In this document: in pieces, positions 24,884-62,412 of the stretch
Numbering within the stretch: position 1 is the stretch's first letter
Layout of the letters: each line of letters starts with the position of its first letter
NCBI GenBank assembly: GCA_025526935.1
Contig: JAHLKD010000077.1
Location: 124,001 to 188,000 of the forward strand
Origin: Cladochytrium replicatum
Lineage: Eukaryota > Chytridiomycota > Chytridiomycetes > Cladochytriales > Cladochytriaceae
Reading direction: 5' to 3'
Length of the DNA stretch: 64,000 nt
Notes under the pieces: generated by a model
Database searches by the model: none
The model's input: only the letters and a program-made list of their open reading frames with translations
What the model was told of the DNA's origin: nothing
Translations under genes and position numbers: made by a program

Positions 24884-24921
24884 TACAGCTAATACGTGGC
24901 TTGTTACCCGCAAATCTTCGA

Positions 24922-25415
24922 ATGGTAAACAAAACTGGAGTCGGAAATGTTCCTTAAAAAAAGCAAACTTCCATGTTGTGCAGGCTGCCACCCAGTACGA
25001 GCTCTACCGTCGTTCGTCGCTGGGAAACTCGCTTATCGAGGCCCTCGACGTGCTGCACACCAACGACCTCATGTCGCCCCAAATGGCCATGAAAGTGCTT
25101 TCGCAGGTAGATTTGGTGACAGACTGCTTATGTTGTTCTTTATGCTTACTGGGAATTAGTTCGACACATGCATCGCTGAGTCTTTGCAGCAAGTCCGCTC
25201 CAAAGCAACAATGAAGGTTCTTCCATTGACCTCACAACTGTATGCTGTATGGTTGATATTGACAGAGCCGTCAGGGATCGAAGCTCACATACGGGTACTG
25301 CGACGATGTCTGGACTTTCATTGCGAGGGACGTCACCGTCCGCATCGACCAGGAGTCCTTCAATGCCGACAAGATCAAAATTGTCGCATGCTCCGCAAAA
25401 TCGGGCACATCCTGA
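24922..25415 (+). CDS. TOA2: Transcription factor IIA gamma (small) subunit, TOA2
   Basis: General transcription factor subunit that stabilises TBP on DNA together with TFIIA alpha/beta. The four proposed exons are 24922-24924, 24984-25106, 25160-25216 and 25275-25415, totalling 324 nt (107 aa; family about 105-125). The coding part of exon 1 is only the ATG; the donor GTAAAC follows directly. Then AATQYELYRRSSLGNSLIEA, SPQMAMKVLSQ, FDTCIAESLQQVRSKATMK, and GSKLTYGYCDDVWTFIARDV, the diagnostic C-terminal beta-barrel strand (family YRFCDNVWTF). The ending FNADKIKIVACS fits TOA2. Introns are 53-59 nt. Only 38 bp separate its ATG from that of the SUV39 gene. Confidence 0.95.
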
Positions 25416-35633: not shown

Positions 35634-38600
35634 TCAACGTCGCTCATACCGTCCCGTCTCCAGCCCATAGCTCATCGTCCTCCTCTGCTGCTGATGTTGT
35701 TCCTCATACTGCTGTCCCTGCCCCTGATTCGTGATCGCCGGCTGCGTCACCCTCGTCGCACGCAGCCACGACGGCACAAGCGTCCACGGGTTCTCCATCG
35801 CAGACTCGATCGCCTCGAACGCACGCTCAATGGTGCTCCCCGTCCCGCCCCCGGAAGGCGGCTGCACGTTCGGCGTCGGGGGAACTTCACGCTGCTGCTG
35901 CTGCTGCTGCTGCGGTCGCGGCGCGACCGGAGCTGTAGCACGTCGGTTCACACGCGCACTCCCGTTCGGTGGCGCGTATCCTTGCTGCCGCTGCCCGTGC
36001 TGCGCCGACTGTCTCTGCTGCTGCTGAGAGGGTCGTGCAGAGTGCCCCCGTCGAGGCGGCGTCCGTCTATGGTGGTCGCCCCAGAAATCATCGTCGGTCT
36101 CCGACCTCGCGTCGTCCTCCCTCGCATGTGCACCGACCGCCCCTCCACGACCGACCTGCAACGGCGCAGGTGCGTGTCCGCCCAGAAACTCGTCTTCCTC
36201 CGCAAGCACCAGCGCGCTCTTTTTCGCCTTCAGTGTCTTTTGCGACGACGACGACAGCATCGGCACCGACGGCGCGACTCCAACCGCGCTAACGGAAAGC
36301 GTGCCAGACCCGCCCTCACCGCTAATCACGAGCCTCGACAGCCCCGTCGCTTTCTTCCTGTACGACGACGCACCGGGGACAGGGATCTGCCTATGCCGTC
36401 CGTACACCGCGTCCTCAAAATCATCGTCGTCGTCGTCGTCTTTCGAGGTCACGCTGTCAATGTCCGTAGGTAGATCGTCGTCTTCCCAATACACCTCGTC
36501 CTCGTGCCCGCCACGCTGCATCCGCTGCCGCGCAGGCACCACCACGTCCACCGCCCCAACCTCTTCGTCGCCATCCACGCTCTCGACTTCATCAAACTCA
36601 ATATCGTCAACATCAAGCACAGTCTCGGGCCTCGGCGCTCCGACACGCACGTTCCGCGTGTCAACCACCATCCCACTCGACCCCGCGCTCGTCCCAAAGA
36701 TCCCCATCATCCCTCCAATAGGCAACACGACGCTATTCCCCATCATCCCAACCCCTACAATTCCGCCCCTACCCCCCCCACCACCACCACCCGTACTCCT
36801 CCCGCTCACGCTCAACGTAGACCGCCGGTTCGGGTTGGCCCCAACCACCGGCGTCTCTGCCGAAACGCTGCCGGACGCCCTCACACTACCCCCGCGCCCT
36901 ACTACCCCTTCGTCCATAGCAGCGGCCTCCGCAGCAGCCCGCTCCCTCAGTTCCCGATCCCGCGCCTCCCGAATCTCCCGCTCACTCGCCCTCACATGCC
37001 CCCTCACCATCGCCTCCCGCTCAGCTTCCGCCGCTACCCGCGTGATGCTCTCCCTCAACTCCCGGTCCGCTTGCTCCCGCCTCTCCCGTTGGCTCACCTC
37101 CGGAATCCTTGTCTTCGCAACTGGCGTGCCCGCAGCTGCTCCGATCGACTCGGCCGCCTGCTCCGCGGCTTCGCGCAGCTCCCGGTCCCGCAGCGCCCGC
37201 ATCTCCCGCTCCCGCTCAAGGTTCGCCCGCGCAGACGCAGGGATCGGGGGCGCAAGCTGCTCCAGCGTCGACTCCATGAAGTTGCGCAAGGGTCTCAACC
37301 AGCTCACAGCTCCCCCAAGCCCGGCACGCTCAGAGTTCACTCCGCTGGGGCTGCTCCCTCCGCTCGCAACCCCCCTCGCGCTCCTCGGCATCATCGGCGA
37401 GCTCGGCACGCTCCCGGCCGGCGACCCGCCCGCACTCCTGTTCGCCGCAAAGAGCCTGGCAGCAGCCGCTGCAGCCGACGCCGGCGCATGCGTCTCCAAA
37501 AAGTGCGCATTATACGGCGTCAACGGCGTCCCATTCGCCCCCCACTTCGCTTTGTTCGAAACCTCCTCAAATTCTTCCCCGTCCTCCTCCTCCCCTCCGG
37601 GCTGCCCAAACGTCCCCCTCCGTCGAACCGTATACCCCTCCCCGCTCGCCGTCGTCACCACCGTCCTCGCAATCTCCATCCCGCTGGGACCGCCCGCGTC
37701 CGCAACCCGCTTCTTGACATCATACCCGTTCTCGTGCCTCCACCACCGCTCCTCCTCCTCAAGGTCGACGTCGGAGTCCCACTCGTCGTCCGTCTCCCAG
37801 CACTTGCTCCACGGCTTGCGCGGCATGTACTCCTCGATCCCGCTCTCCTTCTTGTACAGTGGCGTCCACGGGTGCTCGAGCAACGCCATTGTGCCCGCGA
37901 GGTCCATCTCGATCTCCAGGTGCTGCCGGTCGATCTCGCGCAGAATGTACGACATGGCGACGACGTGCGCTTCCTGCACGCTCTCAAGCTCGTCCTGGTA
38001 TGTTACCAGGAGCTCCTTGGCCGCACAAAGCTCTTCCTCCGCCTCGACGACCCGTGTCGCGGCTCCCTGCAGCGCGTTGACTTCCTCCCGCGCGGCGGCG
38101 AGCTCCTGATGCGCCGTCGTGAGCTCCGACTTCAGCCTCAGACGCACGCGGTTCTGCCTCGAAAGCTGGTCCTGCGCCTTCGCAAGCTGCTCGCGGATAA
38201 TCGCAAGGTCGCGCTCCAGCTCTACTGTGCTGTTGTACTGGTGGTTGTGGTGGGGCGGGTATCCGTTCACTTGCTTGCTTACCGCACCGTTTACATGCGG
38301 CGCATACGAGTGCGAGGGTATGGTAGGACCAGCGCCAGAGTCTATCCATTGGGAGCCTAACAAAATGATCAGTTTCCAATAAATAACTAAAATCCGCCTC
38401 CTTCTGCACTCACCAATGTCCCAGATTCTAATCGTGGTATCCCCGCTTCCGGAATACATCAGCCCGTTCGGCGTAACAACCAAGCTCGACACCGCAGCCT
38501 GATGGCCCGCAAGAGTCCGCACCGCCTTCCCCCTCGGCACATCCCACTCCACGATCCCCTTGTCGTCTCCCGCCGAGAACAGCCTCCCGCCATCCGCGAC

Positions 38601-40133
38601 AGCCACAGCCCGCACAGGCAGCCTGTCGTGCCCAACGAGCGTGCGAACGCACTTTGCGCCTTCCACGTCCCACACCTTCACGCTGCCGTCCTTGCTGCTC
38701 GAAAACAGCACGGGCGCCGTCGGGCCCTGCGCGTTCCTTGGCATGTTGGGCGGCGGTATGTACACCGCAAGCGAGAACACCCAGTCCGAATGCTCCTCGA
38801 GCACCGCGACGCATTTTCCGGTGGACATCTCCCAGACCCGGATCGTGTGGTCGTTGCCCGCCGAGTACAGCTTGCCCGCGCCCGACGCCAGCGCGAGGAT
38901 GATCCGCGTGTGGCCCTGGAGCATCCACAGCCGTCTTCCGGTGCTCGGATCCCACTCGTTGATCAGCCGGTCCGCGCCGGCCGAAAACAGCCTTCCCTCG
39001 GCCGTCATGCACACGGCCGTAACGTACCCCTCGTGCCCCGTCAGCACGCGCGAGCACTCCCCCGTCGCAACGACCCACGACCGCACCGTCCCGTCCTCCG
39101 AGGCCGAGAACAGCCGCCCGCCGCCCGCCGAGAGCGACGACACGGCGCGGTTGTGTCCCGTCAGGTTCCGCACGTGCTCGCATGTGGACAGGTCAAACTC
39201 GCAGATGGCGCCGTCGCGCGTGGCGGCGTAGACGCGGTCCTCGGCCACGCACACGCTCGTGATGGGGCGGCGCGGGTTCGTCTCGAAGGAATGGATGTGT
39301 TTCGGCGCGTTCCCGGTGCTGTAGGCCGAGTGCGCTGAGGAGGAGTAGGAGGCGGAGGAGACGGGGGACGTCGGGGCGGTGAGGTCTTCCCAGGACGGCT
39401 GGGCGCGGAGGTTCGGACGCGAGCGTGTGGAGATCAGCGGGTGGTAGTTTGGCGAAGTGAGTGTGGAGCCTCGGGACCTTCTGTGTGCCGCTGCTTCAGA
39501 GGTCGCGGCGAACGGCGAGGTCCATGCACCGGGTGGTGACGTAAACTCTGCAGTGCTGGAGCGTTTGTGGACCCCGTTGGGGTTGAATTCAGCCGCGCTG
39601 GAGCGCTTGCTGATCGGCGCGACGACTTCGGCGGTGCTCGTCCGTCTCGAGAGCACCGACCTCGCCTCGTCGCCGTAATCCGACCGCGATTTTCTGGACT
39701 CGGTCCGTCCCACAATGACGGAATTGCGCACACGGACGGGGCCGGACACGGTGATAGCCGCCAGGTCCGGCGGAAGGTCGGACTCCACTGCCGGGGCAGC
39801 TTTTGCAGTTGTTGTGGGATGGGGAACCGGGGACACGGGCGACACGAGCGAGGGCGAGATGGGCGGAGACTCCATCTGGGCGGATGCAGAAGTGTCTGGA
39901 GACTGCGAGGTCATGGTTGGGGCCATGGAGGCCAGCGAGATGCGGTTGTATTGCGGGAGTCTATCAGGCGACGACGAGGTGGAGCGCAGGAGAGACGAGA
40001 CAGCAGACGGATGTTCGGGATCCGGGGCAGTCGAAGCATTGGGGTGGTTTGAATTGTCCGAGATGAAGGGCAGCAGCTTAGGGTTGAAGGTGACGTCGGT
40101 GGTCGGGGACACAAGGCGGGCGATGAAGTCCAT
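35634..40133 (-). CDS. Large WD40-repeat and coiled-coil protein of unknown function
   Basis: ATG at 40131-40133 (MDFIARLVSPTTDVTF), stop TGA at 35634-35636. Removing one 57-nt intron near 38358-38414 (GTGAGTGC...TTGTTAG) gives about 1480 aa. Residues 1-280 are Ser/Pro/Thr-rich with repeated RRSSTAEF-like boxes, possible basophilic-kinase sites. Residues about 280-570 hold seven WD40 repeats (for example NLTGHNRAVSSLSAGGGRLF, VLTGHEGYVTAVCMTAEGRL, TLAGHQAAVSSLVVTPNGLM). An alpha-helical coiled coil follows (LAIIREQLAKAQDQLSRQNR and onward), then a second charged helical stretch (REREMRALRDRELREAA), acidic patches, and a Gln-rich tail. No F-box, kinase or other partner domain is seen. Codons end overwhelmingly in C or G, unlike the genes to its left. 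Antisense ORFs of about 600 aa are by-products of this bias. Confidence 0.88.
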   Translation of the reverse strand: MDFIARLVSPTTDVTFNPKLLPFISDNSNHPNASTAPDPEHPSAVSSLLRSTSSSPDRLPQYNRISLASMAPTMTSQSPDTSASAQMESPPISPSLVSPVSPVPHPTTTAKAAPAVESDLPPDLAAITVSGPVRVRNSVIVGRTESRKSRSDYGDEARSVLSRRTSTAEVVAPISKRSSAAEFNPNGVHKRSSTAEFTSPPGAWTSPFAATSEAAAHRRSRGSTLTSPNYHPLISTRSRPNLRAQPSWEDLTAPTSPVSSASYSSSAHSAYSTGNAPKHIHSFETNPRRPITSVCVAEDRVYAATRDGAICEFDLSTCEHVRNLTGHNRAVSSLSAGGGRLFSASEDGTVRSWVVATGECSRVLTGHEGYVTAVCMTAEGRLFSAGADRLINEWDPSTGRRLWMLQGHTRIILALASGAGKLYSAGNDHTIRVWEMSTGKCVAVLEEHSDWVFSLAVYIPPPNMPRNAQGPTAPVLFSSSKDGSVKVWDVEGAKCVRTLVGHDRLPVRAVAVADGGRLFSAGDDKGIVEWDVPRGKAVRTLAGHQAAVSSLVVTPNGLMYSGSGDTTIRIWDIGECRRRRILVIYWKLIILLGSQWIDSGAGPTIPSHSYAPHVNGAVSKQVNGYPPHHNHQYNSTVELERDLAIIREQLAKAQDQLSRQNRVRLRLKSELTTAHQELAAAREEVNALQGAATRVVEAEEELCAAKELLVTYQDELESVQEAHVVAMSYILREIDRQHLEIEMDLAGTMALLEHPWTPLYKKESGIEEYMPRKPWSKCWETDDEWDSDVDLEEEERWWRHENGYDVKKRVADAGGPSGMEIARTVVTTASGEGYTVRRRGTFGQPGGEEEDGEEFEEVSNKAKWGANGTPLTPYNAHFLETHAPASAAAAAARLFAANRSAGGSPAGSVPSSPMMPRSARGVASGGSSPSGVNSERAGLGGAVSWLRPLRNFMESTLEQLAPPIPASARANLEREREMRALRDRELREAAEQAAESIGAAAGTPVAKTRIPEVSQRERREQADRELRESITRVAAEAEREAMVRGHVRASEREIREARDRELRERAAAEAAAMDEGVVGRGGSVRASGSVSAETPVVGANPNRRSTLSVSGRSTGGGGGGGRGGIVGVGMMGNSVVLPIGGMMGIFGTSAGSSGMVVDTRNVRVGAPRPETVLDVDDIEFDEVESVDGDEEVGAVDVVVPARQRMQRGGHEDEVYWEDDDLPTDIDSVTSKDDDDDDDFEDAVYGRHRQIPVPGASSYRKKATGLSRLVISGEGGSGTLSVSAVGVAPSVPMLSSSSQKTLKAKKSALVLAEEDEFLGGHAPAPLQVGRGGAVGAHAREDDARSETDDDFWGDHHRRTPPRRGHSARPSQQQQRQSAQHGQRQQGYAPPNGSARVNRRATAPVAPRPQQQQQQQREVPPTPNVQPPSGGGTGSTIERAFEAIESAMENPWTLVPSWLRATRVTQPAITNQGQGQQYEEQHQQQRRTMSYGLETGRYERR

Positions 40134-40483
40134 TTGAGGGCACTGCACAGATTCGACCGACTCGGTGTTCGCAACGGCTACAGGCTACGGATGGCCCGAG
40201 AGCAATGAGAACGAGACAGAACACGTCCGTCGTGTTGGTTTATTAGATGACGGGTCTCAAGGACAGGAGTCACGTGGCAGCAGGATGAGTGTCGACGGTT
40301 GAGGTTGCATTGTTGGATGCTTGCAACTACCGGGAAAGGAAAACAGGAATCAAAAACAAGCAACAAAACAGAAAGAGCACTACAATAGCACAGCAATGGT
40401 TCGATGCTCACACCACCAGCAAAGCAGATCAACAAATCATGAAAACGACGGCGCATAGAGTCTCCCCCACAAAAACACAGCTC

Positions 40484-48440: not shown

Positions 48441-48899
48441 TTGGACAATCTATTTACATACACACATTGTGTCTGCGTAGACAGTATGATATTTACAAAC
48501 ACTATCGTAAAGATGTACAAAACTCCATTAAACAAAGTTGATAGGTGGAAGAGCCCAAATCAGTTTCTGTATCTGGTTCATATTGGCCGAGTCCCATTCA
48601 CCACTGGTTATGTCCTTTGCCAACCCAGCCCTGATGAACCGATCGATGTGTCAAAATTTGAAAGCATGAAATCCTTGGCCAAACCTGCATTCCAAGGTTT
48701 CCAATCCACCTCAGGGCGTTTGGACAACAGATGGTCGATTATGCCGTCCAGAGCCTTAGTCACTCAGAAGGATTCGCATCCGCTAATGCTCTGAACTTAC
48801 GATATATTGTGGCAGAGACTGAGTGAGTTGTTGTGCCGAATCCAGTTCCCGAGTAAAATAGGCCTTGGGAATTCCACCAATCACCTTGATAGCCGACGA
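48441..48899. other. Unassigned sequence joined to the 3' breakpoint of LINE-A
   Basis: Minus-strand reading frames here are protein-like (AIKVIGGIPKAYFTRELDSA, then after a possible GTAAGT donor near 48800 DGIIDHLLSKRPEVDWKPWN), but I cannot name a family. Homology to LINE-B stops at about 48900, so this is either host gene sequence into which the LINE was inserted or another repeat. Confidence 0.35.
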
Positions 48900-50209
48900 C
48901 AAAATAATATCCAATGCAGAGTCAATACATCCCTGTGCAACATCCACAGACATTTGGGCAAAGGTGGGAGCTTCTAAAATTGGACTGAGCGCAGCATTGA
49001 CATCAGCGAGGGTGGGATCAAAAAACAAATGTCCCACTTCCTCCATTGCTTGAAAGACAGCAGGTTCACGCAACAGATGAGCAGCCCAGCGCTTGTGGGG
49101 GGTGCAGCAGAGGGAGCGCTGGCATTGGGAGGAGCAAAAGAAAAAACAGCTGTAACCGGAAAATGGTCAGAAGCCCAAGGCATAAACTCGCCGTCGGCTA
49201 GACGACTATGAACTATGTAAGACATAGGATCACATTGAAGCAGAGGATTGACAAACAACAAATCGATAATGGAGTCACCATTGCGAGAAGAAAATGTGGG
49301 GTTATGACAGGAAGGGTGCTTAACTAGAGAGAACTAGCAGCAGAAATAAATTGCTCAAACAACCTACCTCTACGATTTGAAGAATGATCACCAGTAGCTA
49401 AAAAACGGGCATTGAAATCGCCCAACAAAAGAACAGGGCACGGAGACGACGGGACATGTTGAGGAAGTGAAGCAATAAACTCTTCAAGGAAGGGGTCCTG
49501 AGCAATACCACACGGAGGCAAATAATACCCTCCAACCAAAAAGCCCACGAAATGTAAACCATAGAGAGGTGCCACCATAACTAGAAACGAGACGGAAATC
49601 AGAAGCTCTACAAAGACTGCGATTGATCAAGACTCCCACACCAGCCCGTCGTGTACCCGATGACCCAGGAGAAAGACGAGTGTCAAAAATCAAATCTGGG
49701 GAAGGCAGCAGGTCTAAAGGAAAAAGGTGTGTTTCAGTCAGGAGCAGAAAAACAATGTGATTTGCGCGCATAAAACGAAACAGTGAATCAAGAACTCCAA
49801 AGCTCAAATTTCGACAATCGAAGGTTCCAACTCGAACACTAATCATTGACGAAGATGGGTTGAGCGAGGCTGACGCGCAATCCCGCGGGCACAGTCCAGC
49901 ACAGTTTCCTGAGCATCCATGGGGAGCTGACCACGGACATACAGGAAAATAGCAGGATCAGTAACTGAACTGAGGATATGTGCATATCTCTTTTGGACAA
50001 CTTCCCTGACCGCAGCCTCCCGCTGCTCCAAAGGCAGAGTAGAGGCTCGGCGAAGAAAGTCAGGGTTTGATTCGTCAGTGGGGGCCACAAAAATCACGGT
50101 GCCACCAGAAAGTCCATCAGGGGGCACAGCGGGGGGTGCGGCGGGCGGCGCGGCATGCGGCGCATCAGGCAGCTGCGCATGCAGAGCGCTGGGAGGCAGC
50201 ATTGATTTT
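48900..50209 (-). mobile_element. LINE-A: internally deleted, 3'-truncated non-LTR retrotransposon
   Basis: Near-identical to LINE-B where they overlap. The 5' end keeps the ORF1 start (from about 50202), but codons corresponding to most of ORF1 are missing: GGTVIF runs straight into DESNPDFLRRASTLP. ORF1 ends at 49843 and ORF2 starts at 49846, overlapping as ATGA. ORF2 holds only the endonuclease part (LLTETHLFPLD, LLGDFNARF, ASDHFPVTAVF), with a one-base slip near 49540 and another near 49330, and is cut at about 48900. The copy is dead. Confidence 0.88.
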
Positions 50210-50240
<31 letters not shown>

Positions 50241-50256: not shown

Positions 50257-50399
50257 GAACTTCATAATATGTATTTATTGTCCAACCAATACATATCACC
50301 CGCTGGTGCAAAATCCAAATACAAGTGTAAAAATACACGTAAATTGGCAGCACATGGGGAACCGTGCGAGCCATAGGAAAAGTAAAATGTTTCAAAACA

Positions 50400-53300
50400 C
50401 TAAGGCATATCCAAATCAACAAAAGCAGACAAGATACAATCAGGAGCTGGAGACAAAACTAACTCATAACCAAGACAGTTTGACCAAATGCGGTTAAGTG
50501 CACGAAGAACAAGAACCCACTGGGAAAAAGCAGGGGAAGGATAAAAAGGCCGTGGTGAAAGCATATCAATTGCAATGTCAAGAGGTAGGCGGGGATCATC
50601 AGGTGGGCCTAGATCAAAACTAGCAGACAAACTAGCACGCAAATGTAGACACACAGAGACATGGGCACGCGACACTTCAGGGGCATCATGACAGTTCCTA
50701 CAATAAGGTCGGGGGTTTGGAAACAGGCGGCCAAGCTGATATAGCAGGAACAAACGAAGACATACTGTTGGGAGATGTTGGTGTGGGGGTAGCAACAAAG
50801 GGTGGCGAAGTTTCAAATTGCGGACAGGGGCAAACGAAACTGCAATTGGTCCATTATGTGCAACAGCTAAAGACTGAAAATGCAACATCAACGGATGAAG
50901 TGGGGGCACAACAGGCATAGGAACAATGAGATCATTGTGACAAGCGGAAAAATAAGGAGATGAACCATAACCGACTGGAGATGACCGATAGAATTGCAAC
51001 ACAGCAGCTGGTAACAGAGGGCTGGAATCACTAGACCAGCGAGCAAACATACGTGCCTGAAGGTACTTCAGCCTGAACTCAAAAGTAGGAATTTGCGCTA
51101 ACAGCAACAAACCAACACGCGAAGTGGTATGGGCTATCGAAAACAGACGACACAGTGCATGATAACAAAAACGCTCGAGTACCTGAAGCTGAGCAGTGGA
51201 AGGCCGAATAAGTGCTAAACCAAACTCAAGTGAAGGTCTAATAAAAGACAAAAACAACAACCTGGCAACACGAGGAGCAGACCCACCAAAGTACGAGACA
51301 TAAGGTGCAAAAAGATACAATGAGGCACAAGCTTTCTCTAAGCGATGATCAATAGTTGCAGCAAGATCAAACCCTTCAATAGTAAAATAGTGACCAAGGT
51401 ATCTAAATGAAACCTCTACAGGGAGGGCAGAGCCATGAAGCTTCAAGGGGGTGGGTAACCGTTGAGAAGATAACACAGCACACTTTGAAGGTGAAAACAC
51501 AAAATGAGAAGCTAAAGCAAAATCTTCACAAATTTTCAATGCACGTTGGGCCTGCTCAGGGGTGGCAGAAAACAAAGCTATGTCATCAGCAAAAAACAAC
51601 GAATTGAAAACAGGAGTGTTATAAGAAAACCTAGCAAGATGAGAAGATTCACGACGAAGGAGCTGTGCTAAAGGATTGATGAAAACTGAGTACAAGAACG
51701 GAGACAAAACAGAACCTTGAAAAAGACCTCGTGGAAGCGAAAACAAATCAGAAGAACGATTCTCTATAACAACCTGAGAAGAACAACAATCAAACATACT
51801 CATCAAAACAGAGATCAAACGGTTTGGAATTCTGGGAAATTGACGAAGACGTTCCCACAAAAGAGGCCTATGCACAGTATCATACGCTGCTTTAATATCT
51901 AAGAAAGTAACACAATAAGGCAGAGCAGTGCGGGAAGCCCGTCGAAGGGTAGCATCTAATGCAAAAACACACTCAACACCTGAACGATTGGCCTGGAAAC
52001 CAGCTTGGGCGGGATCAAGTTTACCAACATGAGCTACAAGCATAGGAAGCAGGGTACGCTCAAAGATTTTTCTATCAACATTGGTTAAAGTAATGGGGCG
52101 GTACTGACTAATATCACCAATGGAGCCCTTATTCTTCCAAACAGGTAACAACAAGCCAGCATTCCAGGCAGAGGGCGACAAACCTGAACGGAAAATAGCG
52201 TTTGAAAGTTGAACAAAAAGGATAGCAACATCAGAAGCTAACGGCTTAAATAACTCAGCTGGAATATGGTTTGAGCCAGGAGCAGAGTTGTTTGGGGAAG
52301 AACGAATAGCACAAACAAAGTCACTAACACTAACTGACACAGAATCATTCAGCGCATGTAGACGAACGTGTTCTGCACTGGCAGAGGATTGTGCAAACTG
52401 AGTCTGATAAACGGAGGCAAAGTGATTGCGATAATGAGATAAAGAGGCAGGATCAGACAATAAACCACTTGCAGCTGAGCGCCGTTGATGACACTTACGC
52501 GCGGTGGAAAGAACTTTGCTAACCTCGGTTAAAGAACTAGGAGAAGAACTAAACATATTGTCGCCAGAAGCCTCTCGAGCTCGCTGAGAAAGAGACCAAG
52601 TACGAAAAGCTTTGACACGCTCACGCGATAGCCGGTCACGCTCCAAGCGGCAATACTCAACTAAACCAGGATCAGGATCATCACAGGAAGAAACAGCTAA
52701 ATAGTGCTTATGAGCAAGTAAGTAGCTCCGTCGCAAGGCCACTAAATGCGGCGGCAACAATGGCAGGGCAGGGCGACAGCGAACTAAACTGGGGGGTCCA
52801 ATGACACAAGCAGCACATGAAGTAACAAAGGACAAAATAATATCCAATGCAGAGTCAATACATCCCTGTGCAACATCCACAGACATTTGGGCAAAGGCGG
52901 GAGCTTCTAAAATTGGACTGAGTGCAGCATTGACATCAGCAAGGGTGGGATCAAAAAACAAATGTCCCACATCCTCCATTGCTTGAAAGACAGCAGGTTC
53001 ACGCAACAGATGAGCAGCCCAGCGCTTGTGGGGGGGTGCAGCAGAGGGAGCGCTGGCATTGGGAGGAGCAAAAGAAAAAACAGCTGTAACCGGAAAATGG
53101 TCAGAAGCCCAAGGCATAAACTCGCCGTCGGCTAGACGACTATGAACTATGTAAGAAATAGGATCACATTGAAGCAGAGGATTGACAAACAACAAATCGA
53201 TAATGGAGTCACCATTGCGAGAAGAAAATGTGGGGTTATGACAGGAAGGGTGCTTAACTAGAGAGAAACTAGCAGCAGAAATAAATTGCTCAAACAACCT

Positions 53301-53780
53301 ACCCCTACGATTTGAAGAATGATCACCAGTAGCTAAAAAACGGGCATTGAAATCGCCCAACAAAAGAACAGGGCACGGAGACGACGGGACATGTTGAGGA
53401 AGTGAAGCAATAAACTCTTCAAGGAAGGGGTCCTGAGCAATACCACACGGAGGCAAATAATACCCTCCAACCAAAAGCCCACGAAATGTAAACCATAGAG
53501 AGGTGCCACCATAACTAGAAACGAGACGGAAATCAGAAGCTCTACAAAGACTGCGATTGATCAAGACTCCCACACCAGCCCGTCGTGCACCCGATGACCC
53601 AGGAGAAAAACGAGTGTCAAAAATCAAATCTGGAGAAGGCAGCGGGTCTAAAGGAAAAAGGTGTGTTTCAGTCAGGAGCAGAAAAACAATGTGATTTGCG
53701 CGCATAAAACGAAACAGTGAATCAAGAACTCCAAAGCTCAAATTGCGACAATTGAAGGTACCAACTCGAACACTAATCAT
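50400..53780 (-). CDS. LINE-B ORF2: APE endonuclease and reverse transcriptase
   Basis: 1126 aa. The APE-type endonuclease (residues about 1-240) has VGTFNCRNLSF, LLLTETHLFPLD, LLGDFNARF and ASDHFPVTAVF. The reverse transcriptase (about 480-830) has ISQYRPITLTNVDRKIFER, QAGFQANRSGVECVFALD, FLDIKAAYDTVHRPLLWERL, LPRGLFQGSVLSPFLYSVF and SLFFADDIALFSATPEQA, with catalytic Asp pair in FADD, then SFRYLGHYFTIEGFD. The C-terminus has a CCHC-type finger (CRNCHDAPEVSRAHVSVC). No RNase H domain is visible after the RT, unlike many fungal Tad-type LINEs. The start codon overlaps the ORF1 stop as ATGA, implying translation by termination-reinitiation. Confidence 0.93.
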   Translation of the reverse strand: MISVRVGTFNCRNLSFGVLDSLFRFMRANHIVFLLLTETHLFPLDPLPSPDLIFDTRFSPGSSGARRAGVGVLINRSLCRASDFRLVSSYGGTSLWFTFRGLLVGGYYLPPCGIAQDPFLEEFIASLPQHVPSSPCPVLLLGDFNARFLATGDHSSNRRGRLFEQFISAASFSLVKHPSCHNPTFSSRNGDSIIDLLFVNPLLQCDPISYIVHSRLADGEFMPWASDHFPVTAVFSFAPPNASAPSAAPPHKRWAAHLLREPAVFQAMEDVGHLFFDPTLADVNAALSPILEAPAFAQMSVDVAQGCIDSALDIILSFVTSCAACVIGPPSLVRCRPALPLLPPHLVALRRSYLLAHKHYLAVSSCDDPDPGLVEYCRLERDRLSRERVKAFRTWSLSQRAREASGDNMFSSSPSSLTEVSKVLSTARKCHQRRSAASGLLSDPASLSHYRNHFASVYQTQFAQSSASAEHVRLHALNDSVSVSVSDFVCAIRSSPNNSAPGSNHIPAELFKPLASDVAILFVQLSNAIFRSGLSPSAWNAGLLLPVWKNKGSIGDISQYRPITLTNVDRKIFERTLLPMLVAHVGKLDPAQAGFQANRSGVECVFALDATLRRASRTALPYCVTFLDIKAAYDTVHRPLLWERLRQFPRIPNRLISVLMSMFDCCSSQVVIENRSSDLFSLPRGLFQGSVLSPFLYSVFINPLAQLLRRESSHLARFSYNTPVFNSLFFADDIALFSATPEQAQRALKICEDFALASHFVFSPSKCAVLSSQRLPTPLKLHGSALPVEVSFRYLGHYFTIEGFDLAATIDHRLEKACASLYLFAPYVSYFGGSAPRVARLLFLSFIRPSLEFGLALIRPSTAQLQVLERFCYHALCRLFSIAHTTSRVGLLLLAQIPTFEFRLKYLQARMFARWSSDSSPLLPAAVLQFYRSSPVGYGSSPYFSACHNDLIVPMPVVPPLHPLMLHFQSLAVAHNGPIAVSFAPVRNLKLRHPLLLPPHQHLPTVCLRLFLLYQLGRLFPNPRPYCRNCHDAPEVSRAHVSVCLHLRASLSASFDLGPPDDPRLPLDIAIDMLSPRPFYPSPAFSQWVLVLRALNRIWSNCLGYELVLSPAPDCILSAFVDLDMP

Positions 53781-55174
53781 TGACGAAGATGGGTTGAGCG
53801 AGGCTGACGCGCAATCCCGCGGGCACAGTCCAGCACAGTTTCCTGAGCATCCATGGGGAGCTGACCACGGACATACAGGAAAATAGCAGGATCAGTAACT
53901 GAACTGAGGATATGTGCATATCTCTTGTGAACAACTTCCCTGACCGCAGCCTCCCGCTGCTCCAAAGGCAGAGTAGAGGCTCGGCGAAGAAAGTCAGGGT
54001 TTGATTCGTCAGTGGAAGCTTCCTGGGTGGAGAAGTGCGCACGGAGAGCAATTGCAGTTGAGCGAATACAGATAAAGGAAGCAATGTTGCGACCAACGAA
54101 ACTGATGTGGCGGATACCACGCACCACCTCATCGCCCAAGAGAGCCCTCAGCATGGTCCGCACAAAGCCGAGCCGCTGTCTCATGATGTCCTTGATGTAC
54201 ACAGTGGTCAAATCATCCACACGGGCCTGAAGATCAGCAGGTGGGGAGACCAGCAGCGGAGAGGTCGGAGGATAGAATACGACAGACCGAGGGCCACGAA
54301 GGCTGACATTGGAAGTGGGGTCACGACCAGCAAGGGCAGTCCTGACAGCTTCTGTACGAGATTCAGCACTCAGTGTGGGGAGACTCTCAAGCACACGGGC
54401 ACGGGCATTGGCAGCAGCAGCGGCATAAGTGCATGGACCACGAGGTCCACGTGGGGCAGGTCGACTAGACGGGGGGCGAGGGCCAGGAGCACCAGAGTTC
54501 CCAAGATCGTCCTGAATTGAAGGATTACCATGCAGTTGTCTAGGGGGAAGGCACACAGGCGCAGCCACATCATCATGGCGGGAGACAGGGGCAACCGGAG
54601 GTGAAGGCGAAGGCAGCGGCCTCCCAAAGCGACCCACCAGATCCTCGGCCATATCACGACAAACACTAAAAAATTCAGCAGGAGTGTCCCTCGGCGAATG
54701 TGCAAGCATAGGATCCAGCATCGCCAACGGATCAAAGGTTGCACAAACAGATCGCATCTGAGTGAGAACGACACGGAGATCGGCCAGAGATGCAACACTC
54801 GAGGGAGCAGCCACAGCAGCAAGAACCCGGACACCCGTCAGATGTGATCGGGAACGAGAACAGGAGCGACCACGGGGCAATTCATGTTCAGCAAGTCTTT
54901 TGGCGCGTCGGTCACGTGATCGGAAGTCACGTGATTCGGCATTTTCATCCTCCCCCATATTCACATCATCGGCCCAGTGAATTGGAGAGGCAGGAGCGGA
55001 GAATGGAAGCTGTGGAGCGGAATTTTCAACAGAGGAGGCACGGGGGTGCGAATGGGCCTCAAAAATCACAGTGCCACCAGAAAGTCCATCAGGGGGCACA
55101 GCGGGGGGTGCGGCGGGCGGCGCGGCATGCGGCGCATCAGGCGGCTGCGCATGCGGAGCGCTGGGAGGCGGCAT
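53777..55174 (-). CDS. LINE-B ORF1 protein
   Basis: Product of 465 aa. Residues 1-30 are Ala/Pro-rich (MPPPSAPHAQPP). A Ser/Arg-rich basic part follows (RGRSCSRSRSHLTG), which suits RNA binding. A C-terminal core (GIRHISFVGRNIASFICIRS, then LPLEQREAAVREVVHKRYAH) is also found in LINE-C ORF1 with substitutions. No CCHC zinc knuckle or L1-type trimer coil is recognisable. ORF1 normally packages the RNA; that is family knowledge. Its TGA overlaps the ORF2 ATG. Confidence 0.88.
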   Translation of the reverse strand: MPPPSAPHAQPPDAPHAAPPAAPPAVPPDGLSGGTVIFEAHSHPRASSVENSAPQLPFSAPASPIHWADDVNMGEDENAESRDFRSRDRRAKRLAEHELPRGRSCSRSRSHLTGVRVLAAVAAPSSVASLADLRVVLTQMRSVCATFDPLAMLDPMLAHSPRDTPAEFFSVCRDMAEDLVGRFGRPLPSPSPPVAPVSRHDDVAAPVCLPPRQLHGNPSIQDDLGNSGAPGPRPPSSRPAPRGPRGPCTYAAAAANARARVLESLPTLSAESRTEAVRTALAGRDPTSNVSLRGPRSVVFYPPTSPLLVSPPADLQARVDDLTTVYIKDIMRQRLGFVRTMLRALLGDEVVRGIRHISFVGRNIASFICIRSTAIALRAHFSTQEASTDESNPDFLRRASTLPLEQREAAVREVVHKRYAHILSSVTDPAIFLYVRGQLPMDAQETVLDCARGIARQPRSTHLRQ

Positions 55175-55179
55175 TGATT

Positions 55180-55302
<123 letters not shown>

Positions 55303-55607
55303 CTTTTTTTTTTTTTTTTTTTTGAATGTTATAACATGTATTGACAATGCTTAATCAGTACATGTCACCCACGTGTACTTCAACCAAGATTTGGAATCTT
55401 CAGTACTTGGGGAGCCGTGCGAGCCGTAGGAAAGAGGAGCGAAGGCAATGGCGAATCGAAGGAGGTGTGGCGCGGTACTTGCACGTGACACGATATTGCG
55501 AGAGATATATTTCGTAGGAAATTCAAATCCAGTCCCCTAAAGGATTCGAACCGCGGAGTTTAGCTTCGAAAAGTCGCATTCCTACCGACTGAGCCACTAT
55601 GAGGCTC
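55303..55607 (-). mobile_element. tRNA-headed SINE with a LINE-like 3' tail
   Basis: Minus strand, 284 bp plus an A-tail of 20 (55304-55323). The head (from 55607) folds partly like a tRNA and carries a perfect pol III box A (TGGCTCAGTCGG, 55585-55596) and box B (GGTTCGAATCC, 55542-55552). It is not a true tRNA: the acceptor stem does not close. After a unique body, the 3' part shares CCTAYGGCTCGCACGGYTCC (55411-55430) and the following GGGTGAyATGTAyTG pattern with the end of LINE-B, and ends like it in TTC plus poly(A). This fits a SINE mobilised by the LINE-B enzyme. Confidence 0.82.
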
Positions 55608-55851
55608 TTTTTTTTTTTTTTTTTTTTTTTAACAATATTATTATTTATTTTGCACATACAATGCATAACAAAAAACAACACCCAAAGTGCCTTACAAGAT
55701 GGTCATGGACCAGCACATAGGGAAGCGCGCGCAGCATAAGGAAAACCAACAAAGCAAAACAGAGAATGTAAACTCAAACCTGTGGCTACCCGTCAGATAC
55801 TGCTAAGGTGCCAAAAAACAGGTGAGTAATAAATAATGAGAAAAGAAAACG

Positions 55852-58800
55852 TTAAAGATCCACAAATGCAGGGCCAAAGAGGGAGTCTGGAGGAGAAACT
55901 TCTAATGGCAGACCCATACAGTGAAGCCAAATCTTATGGAGACAACGAAAAACTAGATACCACGGTGCAAGATTCACTGGGTTGACAATGCGAAGTGGAC
56001 GAAGGCCATCAATTGCAACGTCAAGCGGAAGTTGTAAAACAGGAACAGGAACAGGAGGCAACAATAGGTCAAGACGCAGACATTCTGAAACATGAGATCT
56101 AGAGAGAGTTGCAGTGCGGCAGTGACAACACTGCTTGCGGGGGTGATAAAACAAACGTCCAAGGCGATACTGCAGAAGCCTCAAGATTGACGAAATAGGG
56201 AAGCATGGAGGAGCAATTGCTAGCGCATGAGGGTGTGCAGATGCAAGGGGAGCAAAGCTAGCAGCTATAGAACCATAGGCAGATGAGGCTACTTGGTGAA
56301 AGTGATTGCGATAACATCAGAAGGTTTGGGAACTACAACATTTGCAGCCAGGGAAGAGGAAGTGATTGTTGAAAGGGACAGGAGAACAACGAAAGTGCTT
56401 TCCCTGGTGAAGAAAGAATGACAACATAGAGTGAACCATATCAGGGGCATCATCATCCAGCCAACGTTGAAACATCTGAAACTGCAGATATTGAAGCCGA
56501 AACTGAAGGTCAGGAAACTTAAAAAACAGTAAAACCCCAGCAATTGAAGTAGAAAATGAAAGGCGAAGAAATCGACACAAACATTGGTGAATAAAAGTCC
56601 GAACTGGTTTGCAAACAGCAACAGAGGGAAGAATAAAATATAAACCAAATTCAAGCGTAGGTCGAATAAAAGACAAAAACAAATGACGAACCACAACCAG
56701 AGAATGAGAACTAAACATCCTTGAAAAAGAAAGCAAAGCAAAAGAAGCTGCGCGCGCTTTGGCAAGTCGATGGGAAATAGTCAGTGACACATCAAATCCA
56801 GTATCTCCGAAAAAGCAACCCAGATAACGAAATGAAGGCTTGACAGGCAGAGTTTGACCATGAAGAAGCAAAGGTGAATGAGCAGGAATAGGAATTTTTG
56901 TGAGAATCACAGACTTCAAAGGAGCAAAAGAAAAACTGAGCTTGGGCAAACTGGTCACAAACAGAGAGAAGAACCTGCATAGCATCCAAAGTAAGTGCAA
57001 ACAAGGCCAAATCATCTGCAAATAAAAAAGAATTATATCGTGGTTTGGCAGGATGAAAGAGTGTTATAGGTGGGGCAAATGGTCGGAGGAGCCCAGGTAG
57101 AGGATCAAGAAAAGTGATATAGAGAAGTGGACTGAGAACAGAACCTTGAAACAAACCTCTAAACAAATCAAAAGCATCTGAAAAACAATTTGCAACAACC
57201 ACTCTGGAAGAACAAAAATCAAACAGAGACTTCAAAACAAAAACAAATGGCAACGGTACTCCCCTAGAAAGAAGCTCAGCCCAAAGAATTGCACGATTTG
57301 TGGTGTCATAAGCTGCTTGAATATCTAAAAAACCAGCAACCCAAGGAACCTTGGCATTAGACGCACGGGAGATACATGCCTGAAGACCAAAAACACATTC
57401 CATTCCCGAGCGGTGTGACTGAAATCCCGCTTGGGCAGCATCAAGTGGGCGTTGAGACGTGATAGCAGAATAAAGATGTGGCAACAAAGCTCGCTCAAAA
57501 ATTTTTCGGGCAACACACGAAAGAGTAATGGGGCGATAATTAGTAATATCACCAAGCGTACCACGTTGCTTCCAAACTGGGTGCAAAGGCCCAAGATTCC
57601 ATGAAGTGGGTGTAAGACTACTGCGAAAAATGGACTGAGAAAGTTGCAAGAACAATGGAGCAAGAATAGCTGAAATTGGGCGATAAAGTTCTGCAGGCAG
57701 ACGATCATGACCCGGGGCAGACTCCAAAGGGCAGTCCCTAATAGCTAGAACAAAAGCTTCAACATCCAATGGCAGCTGAAAATCACACAGAACAATTGAA
57801 GGTGAAACTGGGTCAGCAGCTTGAGCATTGTAGACACTAGCAAAATGATCAGAATATTTGGCTAAAGACTGAGGATCAAAATCTAAACCATTAGCTGAAG
57901 TACGAAAGTTAGCGCAGCGCCGAGCATGAGACACATGTTTCAGAAGAGAAGGCACTGATGAAGAACTAGGGTCATCAAAAAAATTTGCTTTTGTCTTACG
58001 CCTGTGTGATCTCAGAGCTGATTTGAATGCTTTGTGACTATCACGTTGGCGAGTTCTTAGAAAAGGAAGAAGAGGGTCAGAAGAATTGTGGTGAAAGAGG
58101 GAATAATAGTCACGGAATGCTGAACGAGCCTTACTACGCAACAAAGCAATCTCAGGGGGCAAAGGAGTGGTCGCTGGTGCTCTACGACGAGGTGTTGGTG
58201 GTCCCAATGTCAGAACTGCTGTTGCCTCAACAAAATCAACTATAATTTGAAATGCGGAATCAATTGCTCCCTGGGCCACTGCACGAGAAAGAGAAGTCCC
58301 CACAGGGACCTGAAGTGGTTCCAATGCTGCTGTTAGCGCCTCTGATGTTGGAGGAAGCAGAATCTTAGCAGTTTCTCTGTGCGACTTACGAATAACTTCA
58401 TCCTTTAACAATCGGAGATTCCAAGAAGGTAGAGGAGGAGGCACAGTGGCCTGAGGATCTGGGCCAGCTAAAGAAAATGAATAGGTCACTGCAAAATGGT
58501 CTGAAGGATGGGGAGCCATAGACTGGGGTTGATCATGCACTAAATAAGAGGAAGCTGTCACATAAGTAGAAGCAAAAAACAAATCAATAATTGAACTCCC
58601 TAAGTGGGAACGAAAAGTTGGGCAACGAGCTGAAGAAGAAGCTGGGACAACCAATGAAAGTGAGTGGGCTGTAAAAAAAGGAAGAAGTGCTCTGGCACGG
58701 GCATTAGTAACATGATCACCAGTGCTCTGAGTTCTAAAATTGAAGTCACCCATCAAAACTACTGGTGTATCCGAATTCGAAACAAATTGAGGAAAATCAG

Positions 58801-59161
58801 ATAATGCACCCAAACAGTCTTCCGCAGTCCAACGTGGGGGAAAATAACATCCACCAATCACGACCTGACAAAACCTAAACCACAAACCAAACCCAGAAGG
58901 AACTGTTGCAATCAACCTAAATTGATAAGTACTGCAACGATGTGGGTTAATAAGAAGAGCAACACCAGATGCCAAAGGAGCGTCTGGTGGAGGACGAGAA
59001 TCAAACAACAAATACTCTGAAGAAACACTGTCTAAAGTTAACTGATGAGTTTCTGTTAAAACTAAAAAATCAAGCTGATGAGTAACAAGCCAAGCAAGTA
59101 AATCTGAAAAATCCAGAGGCAAACCTCTACAGTTGAAGGTTCCAGAACGAAAGGTCCACAT
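55852..59161 (-). pseudogene. LINE-C ORF2 (endonuclease-RT), frameshifted
   Basis: The start ATG overlaps the ORF1 stop (TAATG). The endonuclease (FLVLTETHQLTLD, MGDFNFRTQ, SDHFAVTYSF) and most of the RT (GFLDIQAAYDTTNRAIL, LFRGLFQGSVLSPLL, SFLFADDLALFALT) are readable to about 56930. There a frameshift moves the continuation (SFRYLGCFFGDTGFDVSLT) to another frame, and a second shift near 56310 separates the C-terminal Cys/His piece (CCHCRTATLSRSHVSEC). The copy cannot make an intact enzyme. Confidence 0.88.
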
Positions 59162-60546
59162 TAATTGCGAGATGTAGGTTCAGAACGCGAAGAACGGGCT
59201 AAAGAAACAGTAGCTTCAAAGTCTGCAGCAGGAAGATTAGAACGAAGATAATGAAAAACTGCAGGATCATGAGTAATTCGCAAGAGGTGAGCAAATCTTT
59301 TGTGACCAGCCTTTGCTACAGCAACTTGACGTTGCTCAAGTGATTGAACAGACCCAGAACGAAGCTGCCCAGGGTCAAAAAGATCAACGGGCACCTCATC
59401 ACCTGGAAAAATGTCCTTGCGGAGCTTGTCAGCACAGTCAGAAGTACAAATAAACTCAGCAGTGTTACGCCCAATAAAACTAATATGGCGAATGTCACGC
59501 GAAAATTGAGGGTTTCCAGAAATTTGATTAATCAGAGTGCGGAGTTGATTAAGTGGCTGACGACTAATTTCCTTAAACCTCACAGTAGCAAAACCAGCAG
59601 CACGATCACGAACAGGCTGAGGAGGATTGATCAGAATTGGTGACTCAGCCGGGTAATCAATCACCAATCTGGGTGGCCGTAGTGATCTGCGAGATAGGGG
59701 GTCCACTCCAGCAACCACTGAGCGATAAAGGGCGGGTTGAGCATCTGCTTCGGCAGCTTCAATACGAACATTAGCATTTGATGCACGAGAGGCAAATTTT
59801 GCAGTGCTGAAAGGCCCAGGATTGCGAGTAGCAGGGGCAGGTGGCGGTCGGCTAGCACTCGCAACTTGAGCATAGGAAGGCACGGCAGAGACAGCAGCAG
59901 GACGGCAGCTGATAGTTTCAACCAACGGAACTACAGCAATAGTCAATGCAGCAAAGAAGGCAGCCTCAGTCTCTGGTTCCAATACTGGGAGAAATTGCAT
60001 TGCACGAGTGAAAGCAGACATCACTAATGGATGAGATCCAGAAGTTTGAGCAGGGGCCAGCATATGCAGAGCATCCAAGAATCGGTCACGAGGAGTAGGC
60101 AAGGGAGAGGTAGCATGATCAGCTGCAGAGGCATTCTTCTCGACCCTGGCACGAGAGGCAGGTCGGCGAGTCGGGGGTGATTTTGATGCTCGACGTTTCC
60201 CTTTGGGATCAGCATCAGCAAGGGTAAGTGACATTTCGACTGTATCATTCATGTGAACATCAACGACACTTGCGGGGGATCTTCCTCTAATTCGAGCCGG
60301 TTCTGAAGGGGATGATGCTTGGTCACGTGATCAGCAGTCACATGATTCGCGAGGAGAATTCACTTCATCTGCCCACAGAAAATTTTCTCCATCAAAGTTG
60401 CTGGGCTGAGAGTCAGGAATGTTTTCCTGAGGGGCGCGAGGGTGGGACACAGAGGGAGCACGGGAGCGAGCACGGCCAGAAGCGATGAAAATTTTTGAGG
60501 GGGGTGCGGCGGGCGGCTGCGCAGGCAGACCGCTGGGAGGCGGCAT
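59161..60546 (-). pseudogene. LINE-C ORF1 with an internal nonsense codon
   Basis: The frame opens at 60546 (MPPPSGLPAQPP) like LINE-B, but meets TGA at 60331-60333. LINE-B has a CGA Arg at the matching place within a TCACGTGAC context, so this is probably a C-to-T change. Downstream the frame stays open to 59161; an internal ATG at 60252 gives a 363-aa remainder with DIRHISFIGRNTAEFICTS and SLEQRQVAVAKAGHKRFAHL, the core shared with LINE-B ORF1. Confidence 0.8.
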
Positions 60547-60551
60547 TGATT

Positions 60552-60553
<2 letters not shown>

Positions 60554-60603
<50 letters not shown>

Positions 60604-60613: not shown

Positions 60614-62325
60614 CGAACTTCATAATATGTATTTATTGTCCAACCAATACATATCACCCGCTGGTGCAAAATCCAAATACAAGTGTAAAAATACACGTAA
60701 ATTGGCAGCACATGGGGAGCCTTGCGAGCCGTAGGAAAAGTAAAATGTTTCAAAACACTAAGGCATATCCAAATCAACAAAAGCAGACAAGATACAATCA
60801 GGAGCTGGAGACAAAACTAACTCATAACCAAGACAGTTTGACCAAATGCGGTTAAGTGCACGAAGAACAAGAACCCACTGGGAAAAAGCAGGGGAAGGAT
60901 AAAAAGGCTGTGGTGAAAGCATATCAATTGCAATGTCAAGAGGTAGGCGGGGATCATCAGGCGGGCCTAGATCAAAACTAGCAGACAAACTAGCACGCAA
61001 ATGTAGACACACAGAGACATGGGCACGCGACACTTCAGGGGCATCATGACAGTTCCTACAATAAGGTCGGGGGTTTGGAAACAGGCGGCCAAGCCGATAT
61101 AGCAGGAACAAACGAAGACATACTGTTGGGAGATGTTGGTGTGGGGTTAGCAACAAAGGGTGGCGAAGTTTCAAATTGCGGACAGGGGCAAACGAAACTG
61201 CAATTGGTCCATTATGTGCAACAGCTAAAGACTGAAAATGCAACATCAACGGATGAAGTGGGGGCACAACAGGCATAGGAACAATGAGATCATTGTGACA
61301 AGCGGAAAAATAAGGAGATGAACCATAACCTACTGGAGATGACTGATAGAATTGCAACACAGCAGCTGGTAACAGAGGGCTGGAATCACTAGACCAGCGA
61401 GCAAACATACGTGCCTGAAGGTACTTCAGCCTGAACTCAAAAGTAGGAATTTGCGCTAACAGCAACAAACCAACACGCGAAGTGGTATGGGCTATCGAAA
61501 ACAGACGACACAGTGCATGATAACAAAAACGCTCGAGTACCTGAAGCTGAGCAGTGGAAGGCCGAATAAGTGCTAAACCAAACTCAAGTGAAGGTCTAAT
61601 AAAAGACAAAAACAGCAACCTGGCAACACGAGGAGCAGACCCACCAAAGTACGAGACATAAGGTGCAAAAAGATACAATGAGGCACGAGCTTTCTCTAAG
61701 CGATGATCAATAGTTGCAGCAAGATCAAACCCTTCAATAGTAAAATAGTGACCAAGGTATCTAAATGAAACCTCTACAGGGAGGGCAGAGCCATGAAGCT
61801 TCAAGGGGGTGGGTAACCGTTGAGAAGATAACACAGCACACTTTGAAGGTGAAAACACAAAATGAGAAGCTAAAGCAAAATCTTCACAAATTTTCAATGC
61901 ACGTTGGGCCTGCTCAGGGGTGGCAGAAAACAAAGCTATGTCATCAGCAAAAAACAACGAATTGAAAACAGGAGTGTTATAAGAAAACCTAGCAAGATGA
62001 GAAGATTCACGACGAAGGAGTTGTGCTAAAGGATTGATGAAAACTGAGTACAAGAACGGAGACAAAACAGAACCTTGAAAAAGACCTCGTGGAAGCAAAA
62101 ACAAATCAGAAGAACGATTCTCTATAACAACCTGAGAAGAACAACGATCAAACATACTCATCAAAACAGAGATCAAACGGTTTGGAATTCTGGGAAATTG
62201 ACGAAGACGTTCCCACAAAAGAGGCCTATGCACAGTATCATACGCTGCTTTAATATCTAAGAAAGTAACACAATAAGGCAGAGCAGTGCGGGAAGCCCGT
62301 CGAAGGCTACAATCTAATGCAAAAA
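60605..62325 (-). mobile_element. LINE-D: 5'-truncated copy of the LINE-B family
   Basis: Matches the last third of LINE-B at close to 99 percent by eye. It contains the RT from AAYDTVHR onward, FADDIALF, the CCHC finger and the full 3' UTR with the AATAAA signal. The ORF2 frame is open from the truncation (about 62325) to the stop at 60758. The 5' breakpoint lies about 14 bp from the tRNA-Lys gene. Truncation at the 5' end is typical of incomplete target-primed reverse transcription. Confidence 0.9.
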
Positions 62326-62338
62326 AAACTCATATATC

Positions 62339-62412
62339 ACCTGGGTAGCTCAATTGGTTAGAGCGTGAGACTCTTAATCTCAAGGCTGGGGGTTCGAGAC
62401 CCCCCTCGGGTG
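62339..62412 (+). tRNA. tRNA-Lys (anticodon CUU)
   Basis: The acceptor stem ACCTGGG (62339-62345) pairs with CTCGGGT (62405-62411), including two G-U pairs. D stem GCTC/GAGC. Anticodon stem TGAGA/TCTCA around loop CTCTTAA, anticodon CTT. T stem GGGGG/CCCCC around TTCGAGA. Discriminator G62412. There is no intron. Decodes AAG. A T-rich terminator is not obvious immediately downstream. Confidence 0.95.

Follow-up and report, generated by a model that had tools for sequence, protein, structure and literature searches.

How a short element with a pol III promoter moves through a genome, and what determines where it lands, is the question raised by a locus in the 64,000-nt window of the Cladochytrium replicatum genome analysed here (contig JAHLKD010000077.1, positions 124,001 to 188,000). 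The initial annotation described this element as a tRNA-derived SINE ending in the tail of a neighbouring LINE. It lies on the minus strand and its boundaries were correctly placed, with a body at 55324-55607, composed of a pol III head, a middle part of ~100 nt and a LINE-A-like tail (55324-55430), followed by a 20-nt poly(A) at 55304-55323. The head contains TGGCTCAGTCGG (55585-55596) and GGTTCGAATCC (55542-55552), which we take to be the internal A and B boxes of a tRNA-type SINE, both agreeing with the pol III consensus. The term “tRNA-derived” holds for these boxes but not for a head recognisable as a tRNA: an Rfam search with two copies gave no tRNA match to the head up to an E value of 5, and the best local score between the head and the tRNAs of the loci examined was 16, with tRNA-Lys, leaving no close source tRNA among them.

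A search of the genome with the SINE sequence gave at least 47 matches (40 of 138 candidates were scored). A 22-nt pattern taken from the head, allowing at most two mismatches, located 99 SINE heads in the 198 contigs (50.5 Mb), and the reversed pattern used as control located none, so that the concern that the sequence might be single copy can be dropped. The 49 full copies present at the loci examined differed from their majority sequence by a mean of 0.46% and a median of 0. Since the median divergence is 0, the SINE is not only multicopy but young and recently active. It is short, dispersed and A-tailed, and carries target duplications that are short and absent at some copies. Ten of the 99 heads are located less than 5 kb from the start of their contig (C8, C17, C28, C48, C65, C102, C105, C125, C152 and C156), as if the arrays described below might break the assembly or adjoin chromosome ends.

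In the window, the SINE is part of an array in which all the elements lie on the minus strand, at one side of a tRNA-Lys(CTT) gene (62339-62412, plus strand) that is divergent from the array and is its presumed landing site. Outward from the tRNA gene, the order is a 5′-truncated second copy of LINE-A (60615-62332) that stops 6 bp short of the tRNA gene, LINE-C (55632-60552) with a (CT)n 5′ terminus (60553-60603), the SINE, LINE-A (50257-55180) with its (CT)n 5′ terminus, read on the element strand, at 55181-55300, and, at the far end, a LINE remnant with an internal deletion (48898-50237). LINE-A has both ORF1 (53777-55174) and ORF2 (50400-53780) open; ORF2 encodes an AP endonuclease domain and an RT domain and, close to its C terminus, a CCHC-like motif. 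LINE-C contains ORF1 (59161-60252) and an ORF2 frame (56792-59161) that ends early and matches RT only in part. No Pfam family matched ORF1 of either LINE, nor was an RNase H family found by Pfam in the LINEs; the ORF1 structure predicted from two sequences was of low confidence (pTM 0.33, mean pLDDT 45.5). The top three relatives of the LINE ORF2, out of 7990 candidates scored, were 27-30% identical, and Mucor saturninus was the sole fungal name among 12 matches; when compared with solved structures, 8c8j and L1 ORF2p outscored R2. Patterns of the 3′ ends revealed 288 LINE-A and 256 LINE-C ends in the genome and 0 in the controls.

Elsewhere in the window, a single open frame at 23441-24991 encodes a Chromo-PreSET-SET protein of the Clr4/Suv39 type, whose top four named relatives are from Neoconidiobolus, Chlamydoabsidia, Hesseltinella and Coemansia (31-35% identity), with Schizosaccharomyces next (30%). 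Also, a frame of 1504 aa occupies 35634-40148, and GC content reaches ~0.60-0.66 in the 36-42 kb region compared with ~0.47 around it.

Stringent SINE/LINE pairs are described as having in common a 3′ tail with a stem-loop (PMC3747384). We compared the SINE tail with those of both LINEs. A 20-nt motif of the SINE (55411-55430) recurs unchanged in LINE-A (50257-55180) and, by eye, with one mismatch in the truncated copy, which is 98% identical. Alignment of the last 113 nt of the SINE with the LINE-A tail gave a local score of 38, above all 2000 dinucleotide shuffles (mean 15.4, sd 2.4, maximum 34), and the best-scoring windows along LINE-A (46) fall at its 3′ end. The score with the LINE-C tail was 17 (shuffle mean 14.8, maximum 27), no excess over chance, which rules out LINE-C as the tail partner. 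When folded alone, the last 47-52 nt formed terminal hairpins in the SINE (within 55324-55372; z = -3.4, 0 of 200 shuffles as good), in LINE-A (z = -2.8, 4 of 200) and in LINE-C (z = -4.4, 0 of 200). Stem variants occurred in 3 of 11 distinct SINE tails and 2 of 18 distinct LINE-A tails, standard pairs being kept in all of them, and one pair is compensated between families, C-G in the SINE and T-A in LINE-A; since most stem pairs are invariant, this conservation gives the pairing modest support. Together with the 20-nt motif, the ends of the SINE and LINE-A have in common GGGTG, the hairpin and a TTC followed by poly(A). The tail score, the hairpin, the TTC-poly(A) end and the presence of both elements in the same arrays bear out the proposal that the SINE carries the tail of a partner LINE, and support its assignment as a non-autonomous follower of LINE-A; the chance-level resemblance that would have spoken against such a pair is found with LINE-C, not with LINE-A.

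An alternative would be a relaxed mobilisation like that of L1 and Alu, in which poly(A) is recognised by either LINE and the tail resemblance is due to chance or is ancient. Poly(A) does end all the elements, and tRNA fragments followed by poly(A), detected by eye in L004 and L030, are also found in arrays. This reading has to contend with a SINE tail that beats every shuffle for LINE-A and not for LINE-C, and with the motif, GGGTG, hairpin and TTC end that the SINE and LINE-A have in common, so that we regard it as unlikely.

A third kind of element, element D (L005:221-1475 and other loci), 1.26 kb long, was found in the same arrays at tRNA genes. Its 5′ pattern is present at 38 places in the genome (control, 0), and its tail is LINE-C-like (83% over ~220 nt). 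Its 330-aa ORF resembles ORF1 of LINE-C (32%, E = 1e-14) and of LINE-A (28%, E = 1e-9), and Pfam returned no meaningful family for the element, RT included, the one match having an E value of 0.64. Each LINE family may thus have its own non-autonomous follower, the SINE for LINE-A and element D for LINE-C.

We then asked what lies in front of the SINE copies. Flanks were read for 50 of the 99 heads, the 30 most similar to the window copy plus one batch of 20 loci taken by contig, with no selection on the flanks. Many loci among the first 30 copies had a tRNA gene facing the head. Over the 50, a divergent tRNA gene was located 5-30 bp upstream of 19 heads, 25 followed the 3′ end of another element in the same orientation (a LINE in 20 cases and a SINE in 5), 3 heads, representing two independent loci, faced the 5′ end of a LINE where no tRNA was present, and the 3 others were placed by eye only: L078, with a tRNA at ~9 bp missed by detection, L021, with a degenerate tRNA-like sequence, and L007, with a tRNA at 63 bp and a LINE-C fragment in between. 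For two further heads beyond the 50, the tRNA list places a gene 6-7 bp away, the remaining 47 of the 99 being unclassified. The 21 distances thus available (19 + 2) were 5, 5, 6, 6, 6, 6, 7, 7, 7, 8, 9, 9, 10, 10, 10, 10, 12, 12, 13, 22 and 30 bp, that is, mostly 5-13 bp from the mature tRNA end, with outliers at 22 and 30 bp. The neighbouring tRNA genes span many isotypes. As for other pol III genes, none of the 99 heads was within 16 kb of the 5S (8 places) or U6 (3, one below the cut-off) sequences, these 11 sites being too few to carry much weight. At two loci, L004 and L030, pieces of tRNA-Val and tRNA-Cys with poly(A) were seen by eye within the arrays, as if retroposed. In addition, L024 and L025 are the same 3.3-kb locus on two contigs (98.1% identity), either a segmental duplication or a second haplotype.

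The reverse view was obtained from 30 tRNA loci, those with the highest covariance scores among at least 62 found (63 of 2278 candidates were scored); they include the tRNA-Lys of the window, some of them had also been reached through the SINE, and their 1.5-kb flanks were complete except for one shortened by a contig end. When the flanks were searched with the SINE, LINE-A and LINE-C, the closest element upstream of the tRNA was divergent and lay within 20 bp at 20 of the 30 loci, within 100 bp at 25 and within 400 bp at 28. Adding element D raised these numbers to 21, 27 and 29, the nearest element always being divergent, and left L034 as the tRNA locus without any upstream element. Downstream of the tRNA, an element was present within 400 bp at one locus and within 1.5 kb at two. 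When every match was counted, 89 were upstream and divergent (35,594 bases), two, at L053 and L059, were upstream and same-sense at a distance of 0.7-0.9 kb (660 bases), and two were downstream (L034 at 0.2 kb, 79%; L053 at 0.85 kb, 74%; 441 bases). A tRNA box pattern, with 280 matches versus 137 in the control, was left out of every count. These results identify the landing target as the tRNA gene, on its upstream side and in divergent orientation, and place the APE-RT LINEs themselves consistently at tRNA genes.

The (CT)n repeat beside the SINE had been proposed as the target of insertion. In the window and the loci examined, 17 of 21 tracts of (CT)8 or longer lead within 90 bases into the LINE start ATGCCGCC; the 4 exceptions, inspected by eye, comprise two that continue into this start in a form with ATGCTGCC and two (L044 and L065) without the start. 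The (CT)n tracts are therefore LINE 5′ termini, a microsatellite target is ruled out, and the neighbour that the copies have in common is the tRNA gene.

Short duplications provided information on the order in which copies entered. The bases preceding 19 tRNA-side SINEs match those past their own poly(A) (mean 2.47 versus 1.39, 0 of 5000 permutations as high). The match may include as many as three As from the tail, and the set omits the L032 head, whose anchor word is mutated, and includes L078. A looser test on the longest duplicated word gave p = 0.06. In L026, the word TCACCT is present on both sides of the SINE. Since such a match would be seen if the copy on the tRNA side had been the last to arrive, new copies probably insert between the tRNA gene and those already present. 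In 18 arrays, comparing the first element with the second gave no consistent order of age by position, with 12 against 5 for identity and 7 against 10 for tail length, a measure that fails for LINE-C.

Alternatively, the elements might target the poly(A) or (CT)n of earlier elements and nest in themselves, the tRNA gene being only an old anchor. Half of the heads read do come directly after the 3′ end of another element, and (CT)n is frequent at junctions. These repeats are, on the other hand, LINE 5′ sequence, the tRNA gene is in contact with 19 of the 50 SINEs (within 30 bp) and with an element at 21 of the 30 tRNA loci (within 20 bp), and the short duplication follows immediately after the tail of the tRNA-side copy itself, all of which make self-nesting quite improbable. 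Generation of the arrays by tandem duplication or recombination in place of separate insertions, as the one locus doubled at 98% (L024/L025) might suggest, is hardly credible given that the neighbouring family and the 5′ truncation vary between arrays.

We consider it very likely that we are dealing with a young non-autonomous SINE that is moved by LINE-A by means of its tail, enters upstream of tRNA genes and builds arrays there, a reading that starts from the observed copy number, position, orientation, tail similarity, hairpin, array composition and short duplications. The SINE would be transcribed by pol III from its own A and B boxes, and the ORF2 protein of LINE-A would recognise the GGGTG-flanked hairpin ending in TTC-poly(A) and copy the transcript in trans by target-primed reverse transcription. 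Recruitment of the LINE machinery to pol III complexes would lead the new copy to insert upstream of the mature tRNA end, mostly at a distance of 5-13 bp, divergently and with a short target duplication or none. With the insertion site at a set distance from the tRNA, each later copy would insert on the tRNA side and push the older ones outward, generating arrays of one orientation such as that at tRNA-Lys.

It is also possible, though we hold it as a doubtful extension, that the SINE inherits tRNA-gene targeting from its LINE while its own pol III head acts as a portable landing site for the LINE machinery. At L011/L070 and at L024=L025, a divergent LINE 5′ end was seen by eye ~8 bp from the SINE head with no tRNA, a spacing equal to that at tRNA genes. 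This raises the question of whether the pol III promoter of the SINE attracts its own LINE. Tail-based mobilisation by LINE-A would itself raise the question of whether target choice resides in the LINE protein alone, the SINE being presumably protein-free, and the arrays prompt the question of how a tRNA gene functions when the DNA upstream of it has been replaced nearly to the start site.

UnaSINE, a SINE of the eel, is paired with UnaL2, and the initial annotation drew its comparison with this pair. It is apt for the tail, as both systems have a common 3′ tail with a stem-loop, and fails for the targeting: the elements described here end in poly(A) instead of the TGTAA repeats of UnaL2 and target tRNA genes, for which TRE5 and NLTR-A of Dictyostelium are better counterparts. 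The view that partner LINEs are known for few fungal SINEs seems reasonable, with AfuSINE2-1a of Aspergillus fumigatus as a precedent, whose 3′ end resembles the 3′-UTR of the I-1_AF LINE; its partner belongs to the Tad clade, and the available part of that report does not mention tRNA targeting for it (PMC5063351). Zebrafish Dewa is likewise an element of tRNA neighbourhoods, specific, according to the section available, to the spacer of tRNA-Leu (PMC3706591), one tRNA species as opposed to the many isotypes found here. Ty3 is described as sitting at the pol III transcription start (PMC5911963) and is thus similar in its spacing, but it is an LTR element with an integrase. The LINEs tabulated as targeting tRNA genes in the accessible portion of a 2018 review are all from social amoebae (PMC5911963), and a search of the open-licence literature yielded no SINE described as targeting tRNA genes and no such fungal non-LTR element. 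What the present locus adds is tRNA-gene targeting in a fungus, at 29 of the 30 tRNA loci examined, by LINEs that share the site with a SINE and an ORF1-only element.

The closest parallels are found in Dictyostelium. TRE5 elements are reported to insert upstream of tRNA genes, at a distance of 40-54 bp and with transcription in the opposite direction, and their ORF1 protein to interact with TFIIIB (PMC5911963). As in TRE5-A, the LINEs described here have two ORFs with APE and RT, lie divergently upstream of tRNA genes and end in oligo(A) (PMC5911963); unlike in TRE5, the spacing is mostly 5-13 bp and a SINE with pol III boxes is also present. Element D recalls TRE5-A.2, a variant without ORF2 described as moved in trans (PMC5633606). 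The nearest spacing is that of Dictyostelium purpureum NLTR-A, which is reported to lie upstream of tRNA genes at 2-6 bp from the mature tRNA (PMC5911963, PMC5006619), a distance that overlaps only in part with the one found here; NLTR-A is also described as carrying RNase H downstream of RT, for which the LINEs of this locus gave no Pfam match. By analogy, this fungal system appears to work like TRE5 and NLTR-A of Dictyostelium, with the addition of a SINE.
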